Origin: Gammaproteobacteria bacterium
Lineage (GTDB): Bacteria > Pseudomonadota > Gammaproteobacteria > Pseudomonadales > Porticoccaceae
Direction: 5' to 3'
DNA length: 64,000 bases
NCBI GenBank assembly: GCA_018069465.1
Contig: JAGPUW010000029.1
Coordinates: forward strand, 1 to 64,000
In this document: in pieces, positions 1-35,879 of the stretch
Layout of the letters: the number at the start of each line of letters is the position of its first letter
Position numbering within the stretch: position 1 is the stretch's first letter
The notes under the pieces: model-generated
What the model saw: only the letters and a program-made list of their open reading frames with translations
Told to the model about the DNA's origin: nothing
The model's database searches: none
Position numbers and translations under genes: made by a program

Positions 1-250
1 AAAGCATCTGAACGCTGGACACACCCTGTTCAGAATTGGAATTTAACCCTGTCACAATTGGCGATTCATTTTCCAGATCGCCTAAACAAATACATCAGCC
101 TGTAAGCTGGTTAGGTTGACACAGAGTTTTGAACACCCTCAATAAAAAACACTGAAAATCATGGGATTAGCGCCACTAAGCGTAAATTCCGACTATTTCT
201 GACAATAGACAGAATCACGTCCAGCGCAACCCACAAAGCCATCACCAAAC
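1..250. other. Non-coding left edge
   Basis: No convincing gene is visible here. The stretch lies downstream of the minus-strand carboxylase operon, is AT-richer than its neighbours and has only short stem-forming words (for example CAGC/GCTG near 101-114). It may hold the operon's 3' untranslated region or the end of a gene outside the window. I see no clear terminator with a U-tract. Confidence 0.4.
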
Positions 251-1084
251 TCAAGCCAGCCCAGCCACCCGCTCAACAATAATCTTAGGATCGAGATCGG
301 CAGGCACATCACCGTAAAGACAAGCGCTTGTCAAAGAGGGCAAGGCAGCACCACCCCAAAAGTCACTATTTAATCCACCACCGGTCGGGCCATCCTGCTC
401 ATCTAAATCAGCCGCATCGAGGGTGGGCCGCAAACGAATATCCGCCTCCAGGTCTTCGAGCCCTGCGGCCAATTCGGCACTTTCCAAACGCAGTGCAAAC
501 ACCCAGTCGTAGTGTCCGGCGACACCCTGCAATACTTCGCAGGCCTCGCCTTCGTCACCGAGGTCAACGCCACTCTCACCATTACTGTCGGCAAAGGCGA
601 GCACTAGACCTGCAATCGGCAACTCGGCAAAACTGCGCAGCAAATCGGCCAGTGCCGTGGCGCTGTCGTCGAGCATGTCGAAATCAATATTGCCCGCATC
701 TTCGCCGAGCATGACCAGCAGTGCCGAGGGTGACGGTAGTTGCAGCACTACGTCGACCTTGGCGCTGAGTTGGTGGGCCATGGCTGCAATGGCGTCGGCA
801 CAAAAAGCTTTCAGCGCCGTATCTGCCAGCAGTGCTGAAATCCGCTCGACGCCTTCGCAATCAGCCGCGAGGCTGGCGTGGGCGGCGAACACGGCGCCAA
901 AATCGAAGGTCACCACTTGAGAGCCGAGTATCTTATTGGCATCGGCCAGGCCAGCCGCATAGCGCATCGGCTCGCTATGCCAGGCGGGGTGATTATTGGC
1001 GAACACCTGGCGGGCGTAATCTTCGAAGGCAAGCCATCGCAACACCGTACCGTTTTCTAAGTGATTTTTAATTAAGCCTGCCAT
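251..1084 (-). CDS. Putative fifth subunit of acetophenone-carboxylase-type enzyme (Apc5-like) or hypothetical protein
   Basis: A 277-residue soluble acidic protein with no signal peptide, no membrane segment and no motif that I recognise. The start ATG has a GAGGGAAG ribosome site about eight bases upstream. It is the last gene of a minus-strand unit whose first four genes match the subunits of acetophenone carboxylase (Apc1-Apc4) in order and size. In that system a fifth separate protein of about 34 kDa (Apc5) is needed for activity and is encoded after apc4. The present protein (about 29 kDa) holds nearly the same place, so an Apc5-like role is a reasonable inference from position and size, not from a motif. 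Unlike the described operon, a NYN-domain gene is inserted before it. It could equally be an unrelated passenger. Confidence 0.5.
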   Translation of the reverse strand: MAGLIKNHLENGTVLRWLAFEDYARQVFANNHPAWHSEPMRYAAGLADANKILGSQVVTFDFGAVFAAHASLAADCEGVERISALLADTALKAFCADAIAAMAHQLSAKVDVVLQLPSPSALLVMLGEDAGNIDFDMLDDSATALADLLRSFAELPIAGLVLAFADSNGESGVDLGDEGEACEVLQGVAGHYDWVFALRLESAELAAGLEDLEADIRLRPTLDAADLDEQDGPTGGGLNSDFWGGAALPSLTSACLYGDVPADLDPKIIVERVAGLA

Positions 1085-1157
1085 TATTTTTACTTCCCTC
1101 TTTATACTGCGGTGCCGCTTTTTTACAGACGCTTCATTCTATCGCCCAGCTCTGGGC

Positions 1158-1886
1158 TTACTTTCGCCCATCCTTAATATACATAGCCGTACCATCTTTC
1201 CTCATTTCCACATCAAACAACTCGGTAGCTCTTATTAAGTCACCGAGTTTTTTATAGCCGTAGTTTATGGATGAAAAAGAACTGTTGTTAGATATGTAAT
1301 GGGCGACTCTACTCATATCGGCCCAGCCATCATCCTCTGACGTTTGCTCGACAGCAGTTCTCAGTAACCTAAGCAAAGAAGCATCTTGCCTGAGTTCTTT
1401 TCTGGATTTCCTTAATGTTGGACCCTGTTTATCCTGCCGGCCTTCATCTTCGACAACAAGGTTTTCCGTATAGATAAATGGCGAGCAGGCATCGACGAAG
1501 GGTTTCGGGGTTTTCTTTTCACCAAAGCCATAAACAGGCAAACCGCTTTCCAGCAGCCTTAAGACAAGGGGAGTGAAATCACTGTCGCTTGTCATTAAGG
1601 CAAATGCATCAACATTGCCGCTATAGAGCAGATCCATAGCGTCGATAATCATTGCTGAATCGGTAGCGTTTTTGCCTTTTGTGTAGGCAAACTGCTGCAT
1701 GGGTCTTATCGCAAAGGGGTGTAACCTTTCGATCCAACCCGACAAAGAGGGGTTATTCCAGTCCCCATGGGCGTGGCGAACATTGACCATGCCGTATTTA
1801 GCCAGCTCCTCAAGCACTCCTTCGATTGAATTATGACTCACATTATCGCAATCGATGAGGAGCGCTATCCTTTTTTCTACCGCCAC
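1158..1886 (-). CDS. NYN (PIN-like) domain protein with C-terminal OST-HTH/LOTUS domain
   Basis: A 242-residue protein. Residues 1-145 form a NYN/LabA (DUF88) fold: an early acidic motif (IDCDN, residues 11-15), an ATDSAMIIDAMDLL helix carrying further acidic residues, and TSDSDF near residue 100. These are the metal-binding aspartates of the PIN-like nuclease family, so an RNase role is likely. Residues about 165-240 resemble the OST-HTH/LOTUS RNA-binding domain, a common partner of bacterial NYN domains. The start is GTG with a perfect AGGAGG five bases upstream. It begins 35 bases after the HyuB-like gene stops and 73 bases before the next gene, so it seems cotranscribed with the carboxylase subunits. 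Nothing in the known acetone/acetophenone carboxylase pathways calls for an RNase, which makes the position odd. Family assignment is firm; the RNA target is unknown. Confidence 0.85.
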   Translation of the reverse strand: MAVEKRIALLIDCDNVSHNSIEGVLEELAKYGMVNVRHAHGDWNNPSLSGWIERLHPFAIRPMQQFAYTKGKNATDSAMIIDAMDLLYSGNVDAFALMTSDSDFTPLVLRLLESGLPVYGFGEKKTPKPFVDACSPFIYTENLVVEDEGRQDKQGPTLRKSRKELRQDASLLRLLRTAVEQTSEDDGWADMSRVAHYISNNSSFSSINYGYKKLGDLIRATELFDVEMRKDGTAMYIKDGRK

Positions 1887-1921
1887 AGGAACCTCCTGAC
1901 CCTACAACTTAAGCCGACAAC

Positions 1922-4156
1922 TTACGCCTTCAATGCCTTCAATTCCGCTTTGAGTGCGGCGATCTCAACATCTTTGGGATCGGGCATCATCACTGGCTCA
2001 ATGGCATCTGCTGGGCAGGTTTTGTCGGGAGTACCCAGGTACAAAACGGTGGGGTCGTCCCAGCTGCCGTAATAGGGCACATTGGCTGGCGGCTTGTCTT
2101 TGGTCCACTCGGCGGCAAACTCTTTATAGGGTTTAGCGCGCGCCAGGCGAGCCTTGCGTTCAGCCGCTCGCGCTGCCTCGGTTGCCTCTTTGTTAAGCGC
2201 GCCAGTGTTGTAATCCATCACCACGAAATAGATAGTCTCGATGGTTTTTTTGGAGACAATACCGTCGGCCCAGTCTTTGGCGATGTCAGCGGGGTCGCGC
2301 TCTAGCACGTCGCCGTAACCGCCACCGCCGCCCTGAGTAATCATGTACAGCTCACCCTGCTCGGCCAACTCAAATTGCAGGCCCGCGTGGTGGGCACTGT
2401 AAGTGGCGTCGGGGAAGGGTTGCTCGTTCATGATGTCTTCAATAGTGAAGCGCATAAGGTCGCGGCTGTCTTTCATCACATCGAATACGTTGACGTCTTT
2501 CACCTTACACAAAGGGTAGCAACCCGGTGCGTAGCCGCCGAAAATACCGTAGGTGGAGGGGAATTTAGCGCCAATGCTATTGACCATATAGCCCCAGGCA
2601 TCGGTGTCTTTGTGGGTGACAATTTGCTGGTAGCCGTGGCCGCCGCGCTGCTTGCCGAAACCACAGTTGTCGACCATTACTTTGTGGGGCACCAGCTTCA
2701 TCATTGGCACTTCTTCTTCAATCAGCTCTTGCTCGCCGATATCGGCCATTGAGGCAAAGATCGGGGCTACCGAGTGCTCGCCGTCGCGAGTTGCTCGCGC
2801 CGCACCACCCATGCCGTTGAGGTCGGCGCAGACGTTGCCGACAAACTCCTGGTGCTGATTGAAACCACCGTAAACAAAGGTGGTGATCATGTTGTACCAG
2901 CAGGCGACAATATCGGTGGAGCGAAAACCAGCGGCAAATAACAACTTGGGCACGGCATTCTGCACGGCGGTAAAGGCCGGGAAGAAGGTCATCATGCTCT
3001 GGGCGTTGGGTGCCTCGGGTGAACAGTTGAGCGCCGAGCCGGGATCGGTGAGCACGGTAATGGGTGCAAACACCGCCTGATTGCGCGGCAGGTCAGGCCA
3101 GATAAACATCAAAAACAACTGCGCCAGCATGCCTTTCATTGAGGCCAGCACGGTGTTGTTGGCGCGGTTCAAAAACTCCGGCGAAGAACCCCGCAGGTCG
3201 ATAATTAACTCATCGTTCTGCTTGCTCACTTCACAGCGAATTTTGATCAGCACGTTTTCGCGCAGGGTGCTGTCGGCGAACACATTGGTCAACACTTTAC
3301 CGTTGGGCCAGGTCTGTAAACGCCGTCGCACTTCGGCTTCGGTATCGGTGAGCGTGCCGCGAATAGTCGCCATAAAGGCTTCGATGCCGTAGTCGCGGAT
3401 CACTTCTTCAGCGCGCTTTTTAATACGCAGACAGGCGTGCAACTTGGACTTCATGCCCTCCATTTGCAGCTTTGGCTCGCGCACTGAGTTTTGCAGGAAG
3501 GTGAGCAGGTCTTTGCGGAATTCAAAGTTCTCTCCCACTTTCAAGGGCGGCATTTTCAGGCCCTCGTCGTAGGGGCTCTCGGCACCACCGGGCATACCAC
3601 CCGGCTCACAGGCACCGTTCTCACCCTCGTGCACGATGGAGCCGACGAAGCAGACAATTTCGCCGTTGTGGAAAACCGGCAGCGTCAGGCTTTGGTCGGT
3701 GTTGTGAATGTTGCCGTAGCGGGCATCGTTGTGCATAAAGATGTCGCCATCATTAATACCCACCGTTGGCTCGTCTTTCCAGTATTTAAGGGCAAACTTC
3801 ACCGGGTGCTGAGCCAGCACCGAGAAGATCAATACACCGCCGGCACTGGACAGGGCCAAATCGCCCTGACTAGAAAAGATACCGGCGATCAGGTCGCCCC
3901 ACTTGGCACCGGGGGCGGCACCCATTTGCTCCACCATGTCGAAAGATTCGTTACAGGCGGTTTGCAAACGGTTGCGGATAAGGTGAACTTCATCGGAGCG
4001 ATCTTGCCAGGCATCGACGGCGGCAAGCTCTACTGCGGTGGGTGTAGAGACACTGTGGTCAGCCATGATCTGTGGATCGGGGCCGAGAAAGAGTACGTTG
4101 TCGTCGAGAAACTGCTCAATCAAACTCCGTTCGCTGGGCGCTTTTGCATTAGTCAT
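1922..4156 (-). CDS. Hydantoinase B / acetone-carboxylase alpha-type subunit (Apc4-like)
   Basis: A 744-residue protein of the HyuB (hydantoinase B/oxoprolinase) family, which includes the acetone carboxylase alpha subunit and Apc4 of acetophenone carboxylase. Typical family stretches are visible: HNDARYGNIHNTDQ and VGSIVHEG in the first third, and the glycine-rich CGFGKQRGGHGYQQ and TQGGGGGYGD motifs in the second half. In acetone and acetophenone carboxylases this subunit joins the activated bicarbonate to the phosphorylated ketone enolate. A GAGGAGG ribosome site sits seven bases before the ATG and overlaps the stop of the upstream HyuA-like gene, so translation is probably coupled. The C-terminal ~40 residues end in a charged, lysine/alanine-rich helix. 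The substrate cannot be read from sequence. Confidence 0.85.
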   Translation of the reverse strand: MTNAKAPSERSLIEQFLDDNVLFLGPDPQIMADHSVSTPTAVELAAVDAWQDRSDEVHLIRNRLQTACNESFDMVEQMGAAPGAKWGDLIAGIFSSQGDLALSSAGGVLIFSVLAQHPVKFALKYWKDEPTVGINDGDIFMHNDARYGNIHNTDQSLTLPVFHNGEIVCFVGSIVHEGENGACEPGGMPGGAESPYDEGLKMPPLKVGENFEFRKDLLTFLQNSVREPKLQMEGMKSKLHACLRIKKRAEEVIRDYGIEAFMATIRGTLTDTEAEVRRRLQTWPNGKVLTNVFADSTLRENVLIKIRCEVSKQNDELIIDLRGSSPEFLNRANNTVLASMKGMLAQLFLMFIWPDLPRNQAVFAPITVLTDPGSALNCSPEAPNAQSMMTFFPAFTAVQNAVPKLLFAAGFRSTDIVACWYNMITTFVYGGFNQHQEFVGNVCADLNGMGGAARATRDGEHSVAPIFASMADIGEQELIEEEVPMMKLVPHKVMVDNCGFGKQRGGHGYQQIVTHKDTDAWGYMVNSIGAKFPSTYGIFGGYAPGCYPLCKVKDVNVFDVMKDSRDLMRFTIEDIMNEQPFPDATYSAHHAGLQFELAEQGELYMITQGGGGGYGDVLERDPADIAKDWADGIVSKKTIETIYFVVMDYNTGALNKEATEAARAAERKARLARAKPYKEFAAEWTKDKPPANVPYYGSWDDPTVLYLGTPDKTCPADAIEPVMMPDPKDVEIAALKAELKALKA

Positions 4157-4168
4157 AAGTAATCCTCC

Positions 4169-6301
4169 TCAGTTGACGCTGTTCTGTTCAAGCCAGGCAG
4201 AGCCCTGCTTGCCCATGGTCAGAGACCAACTGGGATAAACGAGATAAGTGGTGTGTGGCGTTTCGACCAGAGCGGGGCCATCGACTGAGGCACCCTCGGG
4301 AATATCCGCAACATTGTAAACATGGGTTGGCAGCGAACCCTCGGTGCCGTCGAACCAGCAATCGCGACTGCTAATCGGCGCCACTTTGGCAGCGCTGCTG
4401 GCGTTACTGGTTTGCAGACTGACCGCCTCGTGCTCGACGTAGGAGACCACGCGGATCACGTTGACCCGAATGCCCGCCTCGGGGGCGGCACTGCCCTTGC
4501 CAAAGCGGTTTTCGTAATTGCTGCTAAACAGGTCGAGCAGGGTCATCACATCCTGATCGGTCTGAATGCGATCTACCGGGCTGACAACAGCCGTTTGCGC
4601 CAGCTGGTTGCCGTAGCGCATGTCCAGCTCAACGCGGGACTGAATGTCTTTTTCATCGACACCCTGGCGCAGTAAATCTTCGCGACCGAGGACTTCGAGC
4701 TGGCCAACAGTGGCGTTAAACGCAGTGAAGTCTTGCAACACCTTGCGTTCAAGGGAGTCGTAGAGCATCAAATAGAGAGAGCGCTCGTGGATGTGCAGCT
4801 GATTCATGCTGCCCGCACCGAGGGCGGAGAAAACCGCGCTAAAGGGCGGAATCAAAATCTTCGAGATGCCAATTTTACTGGCGTAACCACAGGCGTGCAG
4901 CGGCCCACCCCCACCGTAAGACAGCAGGGTGAAGTTGCTGGGGTCATAACCTTTGACCGCCACTTCTTTAAAGATGGCATCGGCCATATTGGCGTCGACC
5001 TTGCGGCGAATGGCCAGCGCAGCGTCTTCAACACTGAGCCCAGTGTGCTCGCAAATATGGTCGCGAATCGAGCGTTCGGCGCGACGCTTGCTGAGTTTGA
5101 TGCTACCACCGGCGTAGTTTTTCTCATCGAGATAACCCAGTACCAGATTGGCATCAGTGGTCGTTGGCAGCTTGCCACCGCGACCGTAACAGGCCGGGCC
5201 GGGATCGGAACCGGCACTTTGCGGCCCCACTTCTACCGCACCCCACAAGCGGTCGTAACGGGCGATGGAACCACCGCCAGCACCGAGGGTGTGAAGATAG
5301 GTCATCGGCGTGCTGATCAGCCAGCGGTCAATTACCGGGTTAAAGTCGTAAAACTTAACGCCATCACTGGTCACCAGACCAATGTCGAAACTGGTGCCGC
5401 CCATGTCGGTGGCAATCATGTTCGGCTCGTCAAACTGCTTTGACAGACTCTCGGTAGCTTCCAGGCCGGCAACCGGGCCGGAGTGAATCGTTTGCAGGGA
5501 GTGGGTGGAACTCATCTGCGCCATACCGCAACTGTTGTGTACTACCAGCATGGGTTTGTCGTATTTATGTTTGCGCAACACGCTTTCGAGACTGGCCAGA
5601 CCGTGGTACATCTGGTCGTGCAGGTAGGCATCGAGAATGGCCGACATGGTGCGCGCGTATTCACCCTTGCGACCCGCGACGCGGTGCGAGAGGATAATGG
5701 GAATAGCGCCGAGCAAGTGGCTGGGGTATTCCTCAAGAATAATGCGCTCGATTTTCTTCTCGTTAATGGGGTTAACCACGGAGTTGATAGTGGCGACCAC
5801 AAAAGCCTGTGCGCCCCGGTCAACCAAACGACGTACCACGGTGCGCACGTTGTCTTCGTCAACATCGAACACCACTTCGCCCTTGTAGTCGATGCGCTCT
5901 TCAACGCCTTCGATCATTGAGCGCGGCACGATGGGCACGGGGCGTGTAGCACCGGCCAAATCCTGCTGCTCGGCTTCGCTGAGGCCGTCGCCATAACCAC
6001 GGGCGCGCATCAGGGGCACCGAGGACTCAAAGCCGGAGGTGGTAATCAAACCCACTTCTGGCCCCTTGCGCTCAATTAAGGCATTGGTGCCGAGGGTGGT
6101 GGCGTAGCGCACGGCGTCCACCGAAGACAGCACCTCTTCAACGCCCACATCGAGCTGTTGACAGGCATCTTCGAGGGAAGCCATAAAGCCGGAGGCGAGG
6201 TTGTGGTGGGTGGTCAGGGCTTTGCCCTCTGCGCGCTTCTCGTCGACCACCAAAAAACAGTCGGTAAAGGTGCCGCCGATATCAACACTGACGCGTCTCA
6301 T
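4169..6301 (-). CDS. Hydantoinase A-type ATP-binding subunit (Apc3-like)
   Basis: A 710-residue HyuA-family (hydantoinase A/oxoprolinase) protein. The N-terminus has the ASKHA phosphate-1 motif VDIGGTFTDC (residues 6-15), followed by TTLGTNALIERKG near residue 70 and the second nucleotide-binding motif ATDMGGTSFDIG in the middle. Beyond this lie LGAGGGSIA and YGGGGPLHACG, usual for the family. In acetone carboxylases this subunit hydrolyses ATP to phosphorylate the substrates. Its ATG overlaps the stop of the small-subunit gene (ATGA), indicating translational coupling. Size and order match Apc3. It is a second and clearly different HyuA copy in the same operon, which is the mark of the acetophenone rather than the acetone carboxylase type. 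Confidence 0.85.
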   Translation of the reverse strand: MRRVSVDIGGTFTDCFLVVDEKRAEGKALTTHHNLASGFMASLEDACQQLDVGVEEVLSSVDAVRYATTLGTNALIERKGPEVGLITTSGFESSVPLMRARGYGDGLSEAEQQDLAGATRPVPIVPRSMIEGVEERIDYKGEVVFDVDEDNVRTVVRRLVDRGAQAFVVATINSVVNPINEKKIERIILEEYPSHLLGAIPIILSHRVAGRKGEYARTMSAILDAYLHDQMYHGLASLESVLRKHKYDKPMLVVHNSCGMAQMSSTHSLQTIHSGPVAGLEATESLSKQFDEPNMIATDMGGTSFDIGLVTSDGVKFYDFNPVIDRWLISTPMTYLHTLGAGGGSIARYDRLWGAVEVGPQSAGSDPGPACYGRGGKLPTTTDANLVLGYLDEKNYAGGSIKLSKRRAERSIRDHICEHTGLSVEDAALAIRRKVDANMADAIFKEVAVKGYDPSNFTLLSYGGGGPLHACGYASKIGISKILIPPFSAVFSALGAGSMNQLHIHERSLYLMLYDSLERKVLQDFTAFNATVGQLEVLGREDLLRQGVDEKDIQSRVELDMRYGNQLAQTAVVSPVDRIQTDQDVMTLLDLFSSNYENRFGKGSAAPEAGIRVNVIRVVSYVEHEAVSLQTSNASSAAKVAPISSRDCWFDGTEGSLPTHVYNVADIPEGASVDGPALVETPHTTYLVYPSWSLTMGKQGSAWLEQNSVN

Positions 6302-6714
6302 GCCTCACCTCCGGCGTGTCGTGCCTTGAGGCTGTCGATGTCCAACACCAGGTCGTTAAGTGTCAGCGGGTGGCCGGGCGGCAAATATTCGACTTCCACC
6401 TGGGTGGCACACTGTGGGCAGTAGTATTCGATAATGCGGCACCAGTCGGGATCGGGTGCATAGGTAAAGGCATATTTTTCCGGGTCGATCACCGGGTCGT
6501 GAATTTCGCTGGGCTCGCGCTCATAAACCACCAGCGCCTCTTTATAGGGCCCGCGCGCGCTGCCGAGGTTTTGATCGCAACGACGGCAGTGCCAGGTTTC
6601 TTTGTCGAGATCAATCGACAGGTATTCAGTGATCGCCACCTTGCCATCTTCAATAGTGACACCGCTTAAGTCCATCTTCCCATTCTCTGCGCTCATGGCT
6701 TTTTTGCCGCTCAT
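6298..6714 (-). CDS. Acetone/acetophenone carboxylase gamma-type small subunit (Apc2-like)
   Basis: A 138-residue protein matching the small gamma subunit of acetone carboxylase and Apc2 (about 15 kDa) of acetophenone carboxylase. Two cysteine pairs, C43-x2-C46 (WHCRRC) and C99-x2-C102 (YYCPQC), form a likely zinc-binding site, and an HDP motif follows the sequence around residue 72. Both ends overlap the neighbours by ATGA (6711-6714 with the upstream gene, 6298-6301 with the downstream gene), so the three reading frames are translated in a fixed ratio. The protein contains no catalytic motif of its own. The gamma family usually serves as a structural and metal-binding part of the hetero-oligomer. 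Confidence 0.85.
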   Translation of the reverse strand: MSGKKAMSAENGKMDLSGVTIEDGKVAITEYLSIDLDKETWHCRRCDQNLGSARGPYKEALVVYEREPSEIHDPVIDPEKYAFTYAPDPDWCRIIEYYCPQCATQVEVEYLPPGHPLTLNDLVLDIDSLKARHAGGEA

Positions 6715-8648
6715 GACTGTTTCTCCACTATCAAATCACCGTTGGCGGATACCTTAAACGACCAGCCAGCACGAATTAGGCAGGTCAAATAGTCGTCCCG
6801 AAATAATGCTGGGCCATCACCGCTGGCACCGGCAGAGGCTGTTTTCAGCGAATAAACCGCCAGCTTGAGCGGCTCACCATTGATGTTAACAGTGGCTTCT
6901 CCCGTTGCCTGTGCAGGGGCGGCCGGCACATCAGTGGCCGTTTGCAGGCTTAAGTGCTGCAGCGTGTGGGTCGCGGTCAGTTGCAAAGCGCTATCGGCCA
7001 AACCGGCAGACAGCGCACTGAGTTGACCAGAGGCGTAGGGCTGAACGCTCAGCTGGCCATTTTTAGAGCCACTCACTTCGAGGCTTTCGTTCCAGTCACA
7101 CGCGTCAATGCCTTCACCAAACATATCGCGGCTGGCGCGGCTGCGCATTTCTGTAATCACCGCTTCTTCACCGCGTTCCAGTACCTCGGCCATAGGCACG
7201 CGGTAGTGGTGAGAAAGGTCACTAAAACCAATGCCGTAAGCGCTGAAAACGGACGAATAAGCGGGGACAATCAAGCGCTTAAAACCCGCCGCTTCGGCAA
7301 TGCCGCCCGCGTTCATGGGGCCACCGCCACCGAAGGCGAGTAGCGCGCTGTCGCCGATGTCGATCTTGCGAGCGCTCATCACAGCGTTCATGTGCTGGGC
7401 AATCTGGCCTTCGTAGGCGTTGATCATGGCATCGACGGCCTGGTCGAGAGACAGACCCAGGGGCTCGGCAATGTCACTTTGAATCACGCCTGCGGACAAG
7501 GATTTATCGAGGTTTAATTCACCACCGAGATAGTTATCGGGGTCAATCATGCCCGCCAGCAGCAGGGCATCGGTAATGGTTGCGACGCTGCCGCCACGAC
7601 CAAAACAGGCGGGGCCAGGTGCGGCGCCGACACTCTCTGGGCCGATGACGATGTCTTTATTTTCGACGCGAATAATCGAACTACCACCGTAGCCGAAGCT
7701 GACGATGTCACCCATCGCAAAGGACGAGGGGATTTCTTCATCGCCCACCAGTCCGTGAGCCAGCTCGGTGGGTGCGCCGTCGACCACCATGGAAATATCC
7801 GTGGTGGTGCCGCCAATATCCATGCCCACCATGGCACTGGCATCGTACATACCCGCATAGGCGACCATGCCTTCCATGCCACCACGGGGGCCGGAGCCAT
7901 ACGTTTTAATGGCGGTGGTTTTCGCCACTCGCGCCGAGTCACCATCGTTGCGATAAATCAGCATCGGGCTGGCGAGGTGGTGTTGCTTGGTAATGCGCTC
8001 GGCACCGTAGAGGAAGTGCTCCATGCCCGAGTGCAAATAGGAGTTGACCACTGCCGATAACAAGCGGCGGGCGTTGTTGTCGTCGCGCACTAATTCATGG
8101 GAAAACAGTACCGGGATAGCACCGAGCAAGTGGCGCGGATAGCGCTCAAGCACTGCGTCCTTAACCAGCATCTCCTGCTCGACCGTCGGCAGAGCGACGA
8201 CGACGCGGGATACGCCACCGGCAATCAAGGTGGTAAAACCCTGCATCAGTTCGGCTTCATCCAGCGTGTTATTGCCCAGGCTCAACGCCACTGGGGCCGC
8301 AGGCACCATCGCCGACCACAAGCTAGTTTTGCCCAGCGTGTCGGCCGCGCCGTAGAGGCTTTGCTCTTCGCCGGCGAGCAGCATAACGCCAACCGGAGAA
8401 CCCTTGTGCTCAACCACCGCATTGGTGCCCGAGGTGGTGGAGTAGCGCAGGTGATCGGTATCACCCAGTAAGCGCGCCAGGTCCTCTGCGCCATAGAGCT
8501 CGCGAGAAAGTCTGTCGAGGGAGTCGACAAAACATTGGCTGAGGTCGTGGGGGGTGGTCGGTGACTTGATGTGCGCCACCCGCTCCCCGTCCGTGGCGAA
8601 GGCGTCGGTGAACGACCCGCCGTTATCGATATTGACCAGTAATCCCAT
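6711..8648 (-). CDS. Hydantoinase A-type ATP-binding subunit (Apc1-like), first gene of carboxylase operon
   Basis: A 645-residue HyuA-family protein (about 68 kDa, close to the 70 kDa Apc1). The N-terminal phosphate motif is VNIDNGGSFTDA, with NGG in place of the usual IGG. The middle carries a canonical MDIGGTTTDIS motif near residue 278, then FGYGGSSI and FGGGGPMNAGG. The family phosphorylates its substrate or bicarbonate with ATP. It is the first gene of the unit (6711-8648, then gamma, HyuA2, HyuB). The ATG at 8648 has only a weak ribosome site. The gene pair with the second HyuA copy is too divergent to be a recent duplication. No regulator or thioesterase/ligase gene for the downstream pathway is adjacent. 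Confidence 0.82.
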   Translation of the reverse strand: MGLLVNIDNGGSFTDAFATDGERVAHIKSPTTPHDLSQCFVDSLDRLSRELYGAEDLARLLGDTDHLRYSTTSGTNAVVEHKGSPVGVMLLAGEEQSLYGAADTLGKTSLWSAMVPAAPVALSLGNNTLDEAELMQGFTTLIAGGVSRVVVALPTVEQEMLVKDAVLERYPRHLLGAIPVLFSHELVRDDNNARRLLSAVVNSYLHSGMEHFLYGAERITKQHHLASPMLIYRNDGDSARVAKTTAIKTYGSGPRGGMEGMVAYAGMYDASAMVGMDIGGTTTDISMVVDGAPTELAHGLVGDEEIPSSFAMGDIVSFGYGGSSIIRVENKDIVIGPESVGAAPGPACFGRGGSVATITDALLLAGMIDPDNYLGGELNLDKSLSAGVIQSDIAEPLGLSLDQAVDAMINAYEGQIAQHMNAVMSARKIDIGDSALLAFGGGGPMNAGGIAEAAGFKRLIVPAYSSVFSAYGIGFSDLSHHYRVPMAEVLERGEEAVITEMRSRASRDMFGEGIDACDWNESLEVSGSKNGQLSVQPYASGQLSALSAGLADSALQLTATHTLQHLSLQTATDVPAAPAQATGEATVNINGEPLKLAVYSLKTASAGASGDGPALFRDDYLTCLIRAGWSFKVSANGDLIVEKQS

Positions 8649-8988
8649 ATCATTTTACCCAGTAGAATTAACAAGAGATTCGAGACGAGCCCAAACCTTT
8701 ATTGCGGAGGGTAAAAAGATTTTGTTAACACCGAGTTAGCTATTTGCCAGTTCGTTGGGCACCAACAAGGCCCAGCTCAACTACTCGGGTACAGAACCCC
8801 CTTAACCCCGTGTTCTTTTTTTTGTGCAAACTTATTGCGCCGTTTATGGGCGAGCCATAAACCCGACGCGGCGCTTAACTTACTACAAAGCTAAAGCCAA
8901 CACCACAGGGACTGGGATAAATAACTGGGAGGAATTCTAGCGTGTCAAAATGGCACGATGCGCGCCAAAACGGCGCACTTTTAGCGCT
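8649..8988. promoter_or_regulatory. 340-bp intergenic region upstream of the carboxylase operon, with a nested stem-loop
   Basis: No gene is supported here. It should hold the promoter of the minus-strand carboxylase operon and the 3' end of rimO. A clear inverted repeat GTTTATGG / CCATAAAC with a 5-base loop lies at 8842-8862, nested inside an outer GCGCC / GGCGC arm pair (about 8837-8874), giving a possible cruciform or operator. A T-rich run lies at 8815-8824. I could not find a sigma54 (-24/-12) site on either strand. A short GCGCC/GGCGC hairpin at about 8963-8976 lacks a U-tract, so it is not a good rimO terminator. Confidence 0.45.
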
Positions 8989-35405: not shown

Positions 35406-35879
35406 GTGAAAAAAATAGCCATTTTTGTCGACGTACAAAACATCTACTACACCACCCGCGATGCCTACGGCCGTCAATTCAACTACCGCAAACTGTGGCA
35501 ACAAATCAGCGCCCAGGGCGAAATTACCGCCGCCACCGCCTACGCCACCCAACGCAACGACGACAAACAAATAAAATTTCACGACGCACTGAAACACATC
35601 GGCTTCACCCTCAAACTCAAACCCTACATTCAACGCAGCGACGGCTCCGCCAAAGGCGACTGGGATGTCGGCATTACCATTGACGTGATGGAAACCGCGA
35701 AAGACGTCGATACCGTCATCCTGCTATCCGGCGACGGCGACTTTGACCTGCTGCTGAAAAAGATTAGAAATGATTACAGCGTGTGCGCAGAGGTTTACGG
35801 AGTGCGGGCGCTGACTGCTAGGTCGCTGATAGATGCAGCGAGTATTTATCATCCTATTGGGGACGGTTTGTTGTTGTAA
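35406..35879 (+). CDS. NYN-domain (LabA/DUF88) putative RNase
   Basis: A 157-residue stand-alone NYN domain. The acidic motifs of the PIN-like fold are VDVQN near residue 10, KGDWDVGITIDVM near residue 80 and SGDGDFDLLLKKIR near residue 103. It starts with GTG at 35406, eight bases after AGGAACG. Only 21 bases separate it from the HNH endonuclease gene, so they form a unit between the ppiC terminator and an inverted repeat at 36681-36714. It lacks the LOTUS domain of the other NYN gene in this window. Substrate unknown; a defence or RNA-processing role is possible. Confidence 0.85.
   Translation: MKKIAIFVDVQNIYYTTRDAYGRQFNYRKLWQQISAQGEITAATAYATQRNDDKQIKFHDALKHIGFTLKLKPYIQRSDGSAKGDWDVGITIDVMETAKDVDTVILLSGDGDFDLLLKKIRNDYSVCAEVYGVRALTARSLIDAASIYHPIGDGLLL

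Follow-up and report, generated by a model that had tools for sequence, protein, structure and literature searches.

The window analysed here covers the initial 64 kb of contig C24 (JAGPUW010000029.1; 232,290 bases) in the 3.6 Mb, 49-contig genome of a gammaproteobacterium of the family Porticoccaceae. Close to the start of the contig lies a cluster resembling the operon of acetophenone carboxylase (Apc), with a gene for a predicted NYN-LOTUS RNase placed between its last two members. The six open reading frames (ORFs) that an initial annotation had listed here, from the letters of the window, were all confirmed at the same coordinates on the minus strand (Table 1). Consecutive genes among the first three overlap by 4 bases, and the third is separated from the fourth by 12 bases. 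The NYN gene indeed carries the AGGAGG ribosome site ascribed to it.

Table 1. Genes and other features of the apc-type locus at the start of the window.
Feature	Position	Strand	Details
apcA-like gene	6711-8648	-	645 aa
apcB-like gene	6298-6714	-	138 aa
apcC-like gene	4169-6301	-	710 aa
apcD-like gene	1922-4156	-	744 aa
NYN-LOTUS (OST-HTH) predicted RNase gene	1158-1886	-	242 aa, GTG start, between apcD and apcE
apcE-like gene	251-1084	-	277 aa
Shine-Dalgarno sequence of NYN gene	1892-1897	-	AGGAGG, 5 bases ahead of GTG
rimO-apcA intergenic region	8649-8988	-	340 bases, likely promoter region (inferred)
Multi-copy repeat where contig C24 breaks off	1-140	.	copies at or near other contig ends

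By Pfam, the four core proteins comprise two Hydantoinase_A proteins, one Acetone_carb_G protein, and one Hydantoinase_B protein, and their top NCBIfam models are, in gene order, ApcA, ApcB, ApcC, and ApcD. Coordinates, Pfam, and NCBIfam thus agree with the proposal that these four coupled genes correspond to Apc1-Apc4 in order and family. According to PMC5214803, from which the motif definitions were also taken, the Apc gene order is apcABCD(E), encoding the alpha', gamma, alpha, beta, and epsilon subunits; the window follows this order with the NYN gene interposed between D and E.

ApcA (PF05378 and PF01968) contains the ASKHA-type motifs DNGGSFTD, DIGGTTTD, and GAAPGP, and the PDB entry closest to it is 5l9w_b (E 1.8e-90), which bears the label Apc alpha subunit. 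By these features, it is the ApcA-like, alpha'-type subunit, a second HyuA/ASKHA ATPase. ApcC is best matched by 5l9w_B (E 3.5e-156, compared with 2.7e-88 for acetone carboxylase) and has, at residue 134, the sequence EERIDYKG, which resembles the Apc-alpha fingerprint R/KERiDsxG with one deviation (E in the first position). No such fingerprint was found in ApcA, and ASKHA-type ATP motifs are kept in both proteins, so that the operon encodes two ASKHA HyuA subunits with the near-fingerprint in one only. ApcD, the HyuB (Apc beta) protein, is best matched by 5l9w_A (E 7.6e-88; acetone carboxylase, 1.7e-45). ApcB (Acetone_carb_G, 4.4e-33) contains two CxxC pairs (cysteines 43, 46, 99, and 102) plus Cys 92; by residue count, the two pairs would provide the four conserved metal-binding cysteines of the small subunit. 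The acetophenone-carboxylase-type layout suggested earlier (two HyuA, a small subunit, and HyuB) therefore holds, acetophenone carboxylase being the best PDB match for each of the three proteins covered by this comparison (ApcA, ApcC, and ApcD).

The same families also occur in ATP-dependent amidohydrolases. ApcC and ApcD match caprolactamase alpha and beta (428 and 142 bits, respectively), and 5-oxoprolinases and hydantoinases are homologous, which would fit an operon for a hydantoinase, lactamase, or other such amidohydrolase instead of a carboxylase. We consider this highly improbable, given the two different HyuA proteins, the Acetone_carb_G subunit, the ApcE-type subunit described below, and the acetophenone carboxylase matches; hydantoinase clusters, according to PMC5214803, have A and B only.

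The 277-aa protein gave no significant Pfam, NCBIfam, or PDB match when searched as a single sequence, and none as a 19-member family, for which only matches to single members, with E 0.026 or weaker, were listed. Naming it by sequence thus failed, and its identity came from fold and synteny only. An AlphaFold model built from 17 sequences reached a mean predicted local distance difference test (pLDDT) score of 91.6 (five models: 91.6, 89.4, 85.8, 66.4, and 65.9). Ranked by E-value, the first Foldseek match of this model was 9fou, the ApcE of acetophenone carboxylase (E 4.4e-6, template-modelling score 0.66, 17% identity); none of the five papers listed for acetophenone carboxylase since 2023 deals with the 9fou structure. 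With hhalign, the family profile matched the gene that follows apcD on a Neorhizobium plasmid (E 2e-36) and, weakly, its counterpart on a haloarchaeal plasmid (E 3e-7).

We then read 42 distinct apcD loci, after dropping six duplicate rows and adding locus L032. In 40 of them apcD is followed downstream by an ApcE-family gene, and in the remaining two (L180 and L182) none was detected there. Three loci (L029, L030, and L032) had entered this count through apcE itself, and without them it is 37 of 39. The Apc epsilon subunit, of about 34 kDa, thus has a counterpart here both by the fold match to 9fou and by profile matches to genes at the same position. The initial annotation had proposed the 277-residue protein as the counterpart of Apc5, and structure prediction bore this out: by predicted fold and synteny, it is the probable fifth, epsilon-type (ApcE) subunit.

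Upstream, the rimO-apcA intergenic region showed no promoter-like consensus on the minus strand in a pattern scan. In relatives, rimO also precedes apcA in L031 and was not found upstream of apcA in L033.

Downstream, contig C24 stops 250 bases past apcE, its first base being the first base of the window, and its terminal 140 bases are a multi-copy repeat. Contigs C29, C8, C43, C28, and C14 carry terminal copies of 140-146 bases with 99-100% identity; C39 and C38 have such copies 50 bases in from their ends, C4 has a shorter terminal one, and C21 holds an internal copy with 87% identity. We considered an insertion sequence as the nature of this repeat, and this was not borne out, as no transposase ORF was seen beside the C21 copy and the repeat is absent among the matches of the transposase stretch at the end of contig C2. 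The assembly breaks at repeats, and any gene more than 250 bases downstream of apcE is cut off because the window starts at the contig end.

In related loci, genes for an acyl-CoA ligase and a CobW GTPase are found downstream of apcE (L030-L034). The same region of L031-L034 also contains SDR and ParA genes, and two of these loci, L031 and L033, have an AraC gene as well. The window's own genome carries ligase, CobW, SDR1, SDR2, ParA, SDR3, and AraC genes on contig C2, where the ligase is 83% identical to that of L034. The end of this contig, 2.5-3.3 kb upstream of the ligase, interrupts an IS4-type transposase gene. Contigs C24 and C2 are plausible neighbours in the genome. Parts of the same transposase gene recur at the starts of other contigs. 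The earlier remark that no regulator, ligase, or thiolase is adjacent thus stands for the thiolase, none being recognised among the cluster genes examined, and falls for the ligase and the regulator: with only 250 bases of contig left beyond apcE, neither could come into view.

In two relatives, additional ORFs, different in each, separate apcE from the ligase gene (L031:10935-13287 and L032:1508-2994). The 3' half of the apc cluster seems insertion-prone.

Among solved structures, SDR1 comes closest to R-specific alcohol dehydrogenases (best PDB match E 4.4e-65). We tried to derive the identity of the substrate from this match and abandoned the attempt, as it fits a secondary alcohol/ketone pair without being specific. 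The ligase of the Cupriavidus cluster may resemble acetoacetyl-CoA synthetase.

In the clade of the window, the apc cluster includes a gene for a CobW/COG0523-type GTPase (L081:9570-10610, on contig C2, and L030-L034), and more distant CobW genes lie near apc genes on a Neorhizobium plasmid and at another locus that is also gammaproteobacterial (L086:19807-21015; L182). This GTPase could load metal into the small subunit, which makes its presence in the clusters a testable lead. A 2023 acetone carboxylase paper describes known enzyme-specific chaperones as absent (PMC10865871).

The 242-aa product of the interposed gene scores above the Pfam gathering cut-offs for both NYN (PF01936, 3.3e-36, 125.4 bits; cut-off 24.2) and OST-HTH, i.e. 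LOTUS (PF12872, 5.2e-11, 42.7 bits; cut-off 23.8), and its C-terminal LOTUS part matches PDB entry 2kpm. Asp 12, 14, 76, 82, 85, 101, and 103 and two Asn are invariant in all 41 NYN sequences, that of the window included, and from these conserved aspartates RNase activity is plausible. The gene has a guanine-plus-cytosine content of 45.5%, compared with 56-59% in the apc genes, and the homologous copies of L034 and L052 are also at about 45%. A known defence gene was ruled out, PADLOC giving no match. A terminator after the NYN gene was likewise discarded, for just a short hairpin of 5 pairs was seen there (fold z-score -1.07) and the pattern scan lists this hairpin on the plus strand only.

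No second close homologue of the gene was found in the window's genome. Elsewhere in the window, a 170-codon open frame contains another NYN-domain match (35412-35855, plus strand) that scores higher with Pfam NYN (140.5 bits) than the in-operon copy (126.4 bits in this comparison).

Among 40 distinct apcD-apcE junctions, the NYN gene occupies two, in the window and in locus L034 of another Porticoccaceae genome; an SDR gene is found in one, and the other 37 hold no ORF longer than 100 aa. The SDR gene (L119:12244-13020, on plasmid pBB1 of Cupriavidus necator N-1) illustrates that this junction accepts other genes. The seven closest operons include two with the NYN gene and five without it. 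For three of these five, no NYN homologue turned up anywhere in the genome (G008, G010, and G063) at E values up to 1e-30, and for the other two (L029 and L030) absence refers to the operon and not to a whole-genome search.

Homologues of the NYN gene were present in 9 of 112 genomes of the family (E up to 1e-30) and in 33 of 390 genomes of the order (E up to 1e-70), the window's genome being counted in both. Their surroundings, readable at 41 of 42 loci, differ apart from close pairs; two lie beside apc genes, and no neighbour family recurs in more than six loci. Locus L140, from which no NYN ORF was recovered, does not enter the neighbour or tree counts. In other families, the surroundings of homologues with 66-87% identity are unrelated. 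The 87% identical copy of genome G007 is placed beside different genes, which by eye we named acyl-CoA-ligase-like and acyl-CoA-dehydrogenase-like, and in G457 an 83% identical gene shares a contig with an apc-type operon about 0.7 Mb away. The NYN gene and the apc genes therefore do not form a conserved module, and the neighbourhood survey rules out the NYN gene as a conserved operon partner. The initial annotation had treated it as part of the carboxylase system and had suggested gene-order comparison in relatives; that comparison speaks against it.

A survey of such proteins (Anantharaman et al. 2010) bears on these mixed contexts. It reports no conserved neighbourhoods with other RNA-processing systems for bacterial genes of the LK-nuclease (DUF88) plus OST-HTH (LOTUS) architecture (PMC2848206), with which the contexts found here agree.

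We next traced the history of the two in-operon copies. In the operon tree, the window groups with L029 and L030 (support 97/99) and L034 with L031 (92/93), and a single clade of the window and L034 is rejected (approximately unbiased test, p-AU 1.7e-55). In a first operon tree, L032 had been represented by an incomplete apcD; the second, to which the given supports refer, left out L032 and added a plasmid outgroup. The NYN tree places the two in-operon copies together weakly (77/76; second tree 77/58), and alternatives that join either of them to the L052 and L120 copies are not rejected (p-AU 0.08 and 0.21). Between the window and L034, the proportion of synonymous differences (pS) is 0.664 for NYN, 0.660 for apcD, and 0.790 for apcE; these values are near saturation, and the equality of NYN and apcD is weak evidence. 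The NYN value is the lowest of 15 pairs among six copies, hand-chosen out of 41 for the codon comparison.

Taken together, tree and pS data lean toward one old NYN insertion with later losses. Two independent insertions at the apcD-apcE junction, which would then be an insertion-prone spot, would be compatible with the NYN gene being a passenger and are in our view somewhat doubtful: the operon tree separates the two NYN-bearing operons, their flanking intergenic sequences look unlike by eye, and the same junction is occupied by an SDR gene in Cupriavidus, whereas the NYN copies pair together, if weakly, and show the lowest pS.

The NYN-LOTUS protein might act on the long apc mRNA, cutting or tuning it as a functional in-operon regulator recruited in one Porticoccaceae branch. 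Its presence at the same junction in two non-sister operons, the weak grouping of both copies, a pS matching that of the flanking apcD, purifying selection, and the lack of a second close homologue in a genome whose other NYN-domain match sits in a 170-codon frame speak for such a role. We nevertheless judge it improbable, because the gene is absent from five of the seven closest and from 38 of the 40 operons, three of the NYN-free genomes lack any match at the threshold used, equally conserved NYN genes are located away from any apc operon, and the match in pS is a weak one near saturation that apcE of the same pair does not share. A variant, in which the gene entered the operon of a common ancestor and was kept in at least two long-separated lineages to trim or time the apc transcript ahead of a separately supplied epsilon subunit, seems to us just as improbable.

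Overall, the locus is likely to be an operon of the apcABCDE type that encodes a five-subunit, ATP-dependent ketone carboxylase, with the NYN gene as a long-kept passenger and not a working part. By analogy with Apc, ApcC would phosphorylate the enol form of the ketone and ApcA would phosphorylate bicarbonate, with ApcD and ApcB completing the core; docking of the UroD-fold ApcE would then let the two activated substrates react to a beta-keto acid. Because the clusters of relatives add an acyl-CoA ligase and SDRs resembling secondary-alcohol dehydrogenases, the pathway would probably run from a secondary alcohol through the ketone and the beta-keto acid to a beta-ketoacyl-CoA. A stand-alone, patchily distributed gene for a predicted NYN-LOTUS RNase would have landed between apcD and apcE and been kept in some lineages; it may be co-transcribed with the apc genes, though not part of the carboxylase machinery.

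Several observations weigh against this interpretation. All four core subunits score under the curated NCBIfam Apc cut-offs (bits versus cut-off: ApcA 348/1250, ApcB 146/250, ApcC 569/1500, ApcD 318/1500). The locus is therefore not filed as acetophenone carboxylase sensu stricto, and its substrate may differ greatly from acetophenone; it is an apc-type complex, though by the equivalog standard of NCBIfam no acetophenone carboxylase. For the fifth subunit, the 19-member family profile matches no PDB sequence up to E 10, 9fou included, and VIA-align ranks UroD (Z 21.0) above 9fou (Z 17.7). The predicted fold is accordingly UroD-like and not by itself specific for ApcE, and the modelled tie to Aromatoleum ApcE rests on fold, without sequence support. 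Finally, the NYN gene was kept in two non-sister operons with a pS of 0.66 and a proportion of nonsynonymous differences (pN) of 0.08, i.e. under purifying selection, at the same junction, which is the one unusual point of the locus. The low pN indicates selection on the gene, which is a different matter from service to the operon, and speaks against mere debris.

According to PMC5214803, a single ketone carboxylase of the apcABCDE type had been characterised biochemically as of 2017. Related five-gene operons were found in gammaproteobacteria and also on plasmids, from Neorhizobium, Cupriavidus, Rhodococcus, and a haloarchaeon (nine plasmid records had an apcD match above 45% identity, and five of these were examined), and the fifth gene is called hypothetical in the four annotated plasmid records examined. 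In the collection searched, no paper names both Porticoccaceae and acetone carboxylase. The window thus holds a ketone carboxylase operon that is ordinary, if little studied, together with a facultative passenger gene for a predicted RNase, and the tempting link between RNase and carboxylase was found unsupported.

In comparison with the apcABCDE-bal cluster of Aromatoleum aromaticum EbN1, in which, according to PMC4729919 and PMC5214803, the carboxylase genes are followed by a CoA ligase (benzoylacetate-CoA ligase) gene, the same A-B-C-D-E set and order is found here, with a CoA ligase following in the window's relatives. The alpha, alpha', beta, and gamma subunits are homologous to those of Aromatoleum and the ApcE folds are alike. 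In contrast, the window proteins score under the equivalog cut-offs, by score their group is well separated from Aromatoleum Apc, the ApcE is not recognisable by sequence, and the window-type cluster has a CobW GTPase, SDRs, and a facultative NYN gene. Acetone carboxylase AcxABC shares homologous HyuA, HyuB, and gamma-type subunits; it has one HyuA and no epsilon subunit, according to PMC5214803, and is the weaker PDB match. The NYN-LOTUS protein has the same architecture as the stand-alone bacterial LK-nuclease (DUF88) plus OST-HTH (LOTUS) proteins of PMC2848206, whereas here two such genes sit inside a catabolic operon.

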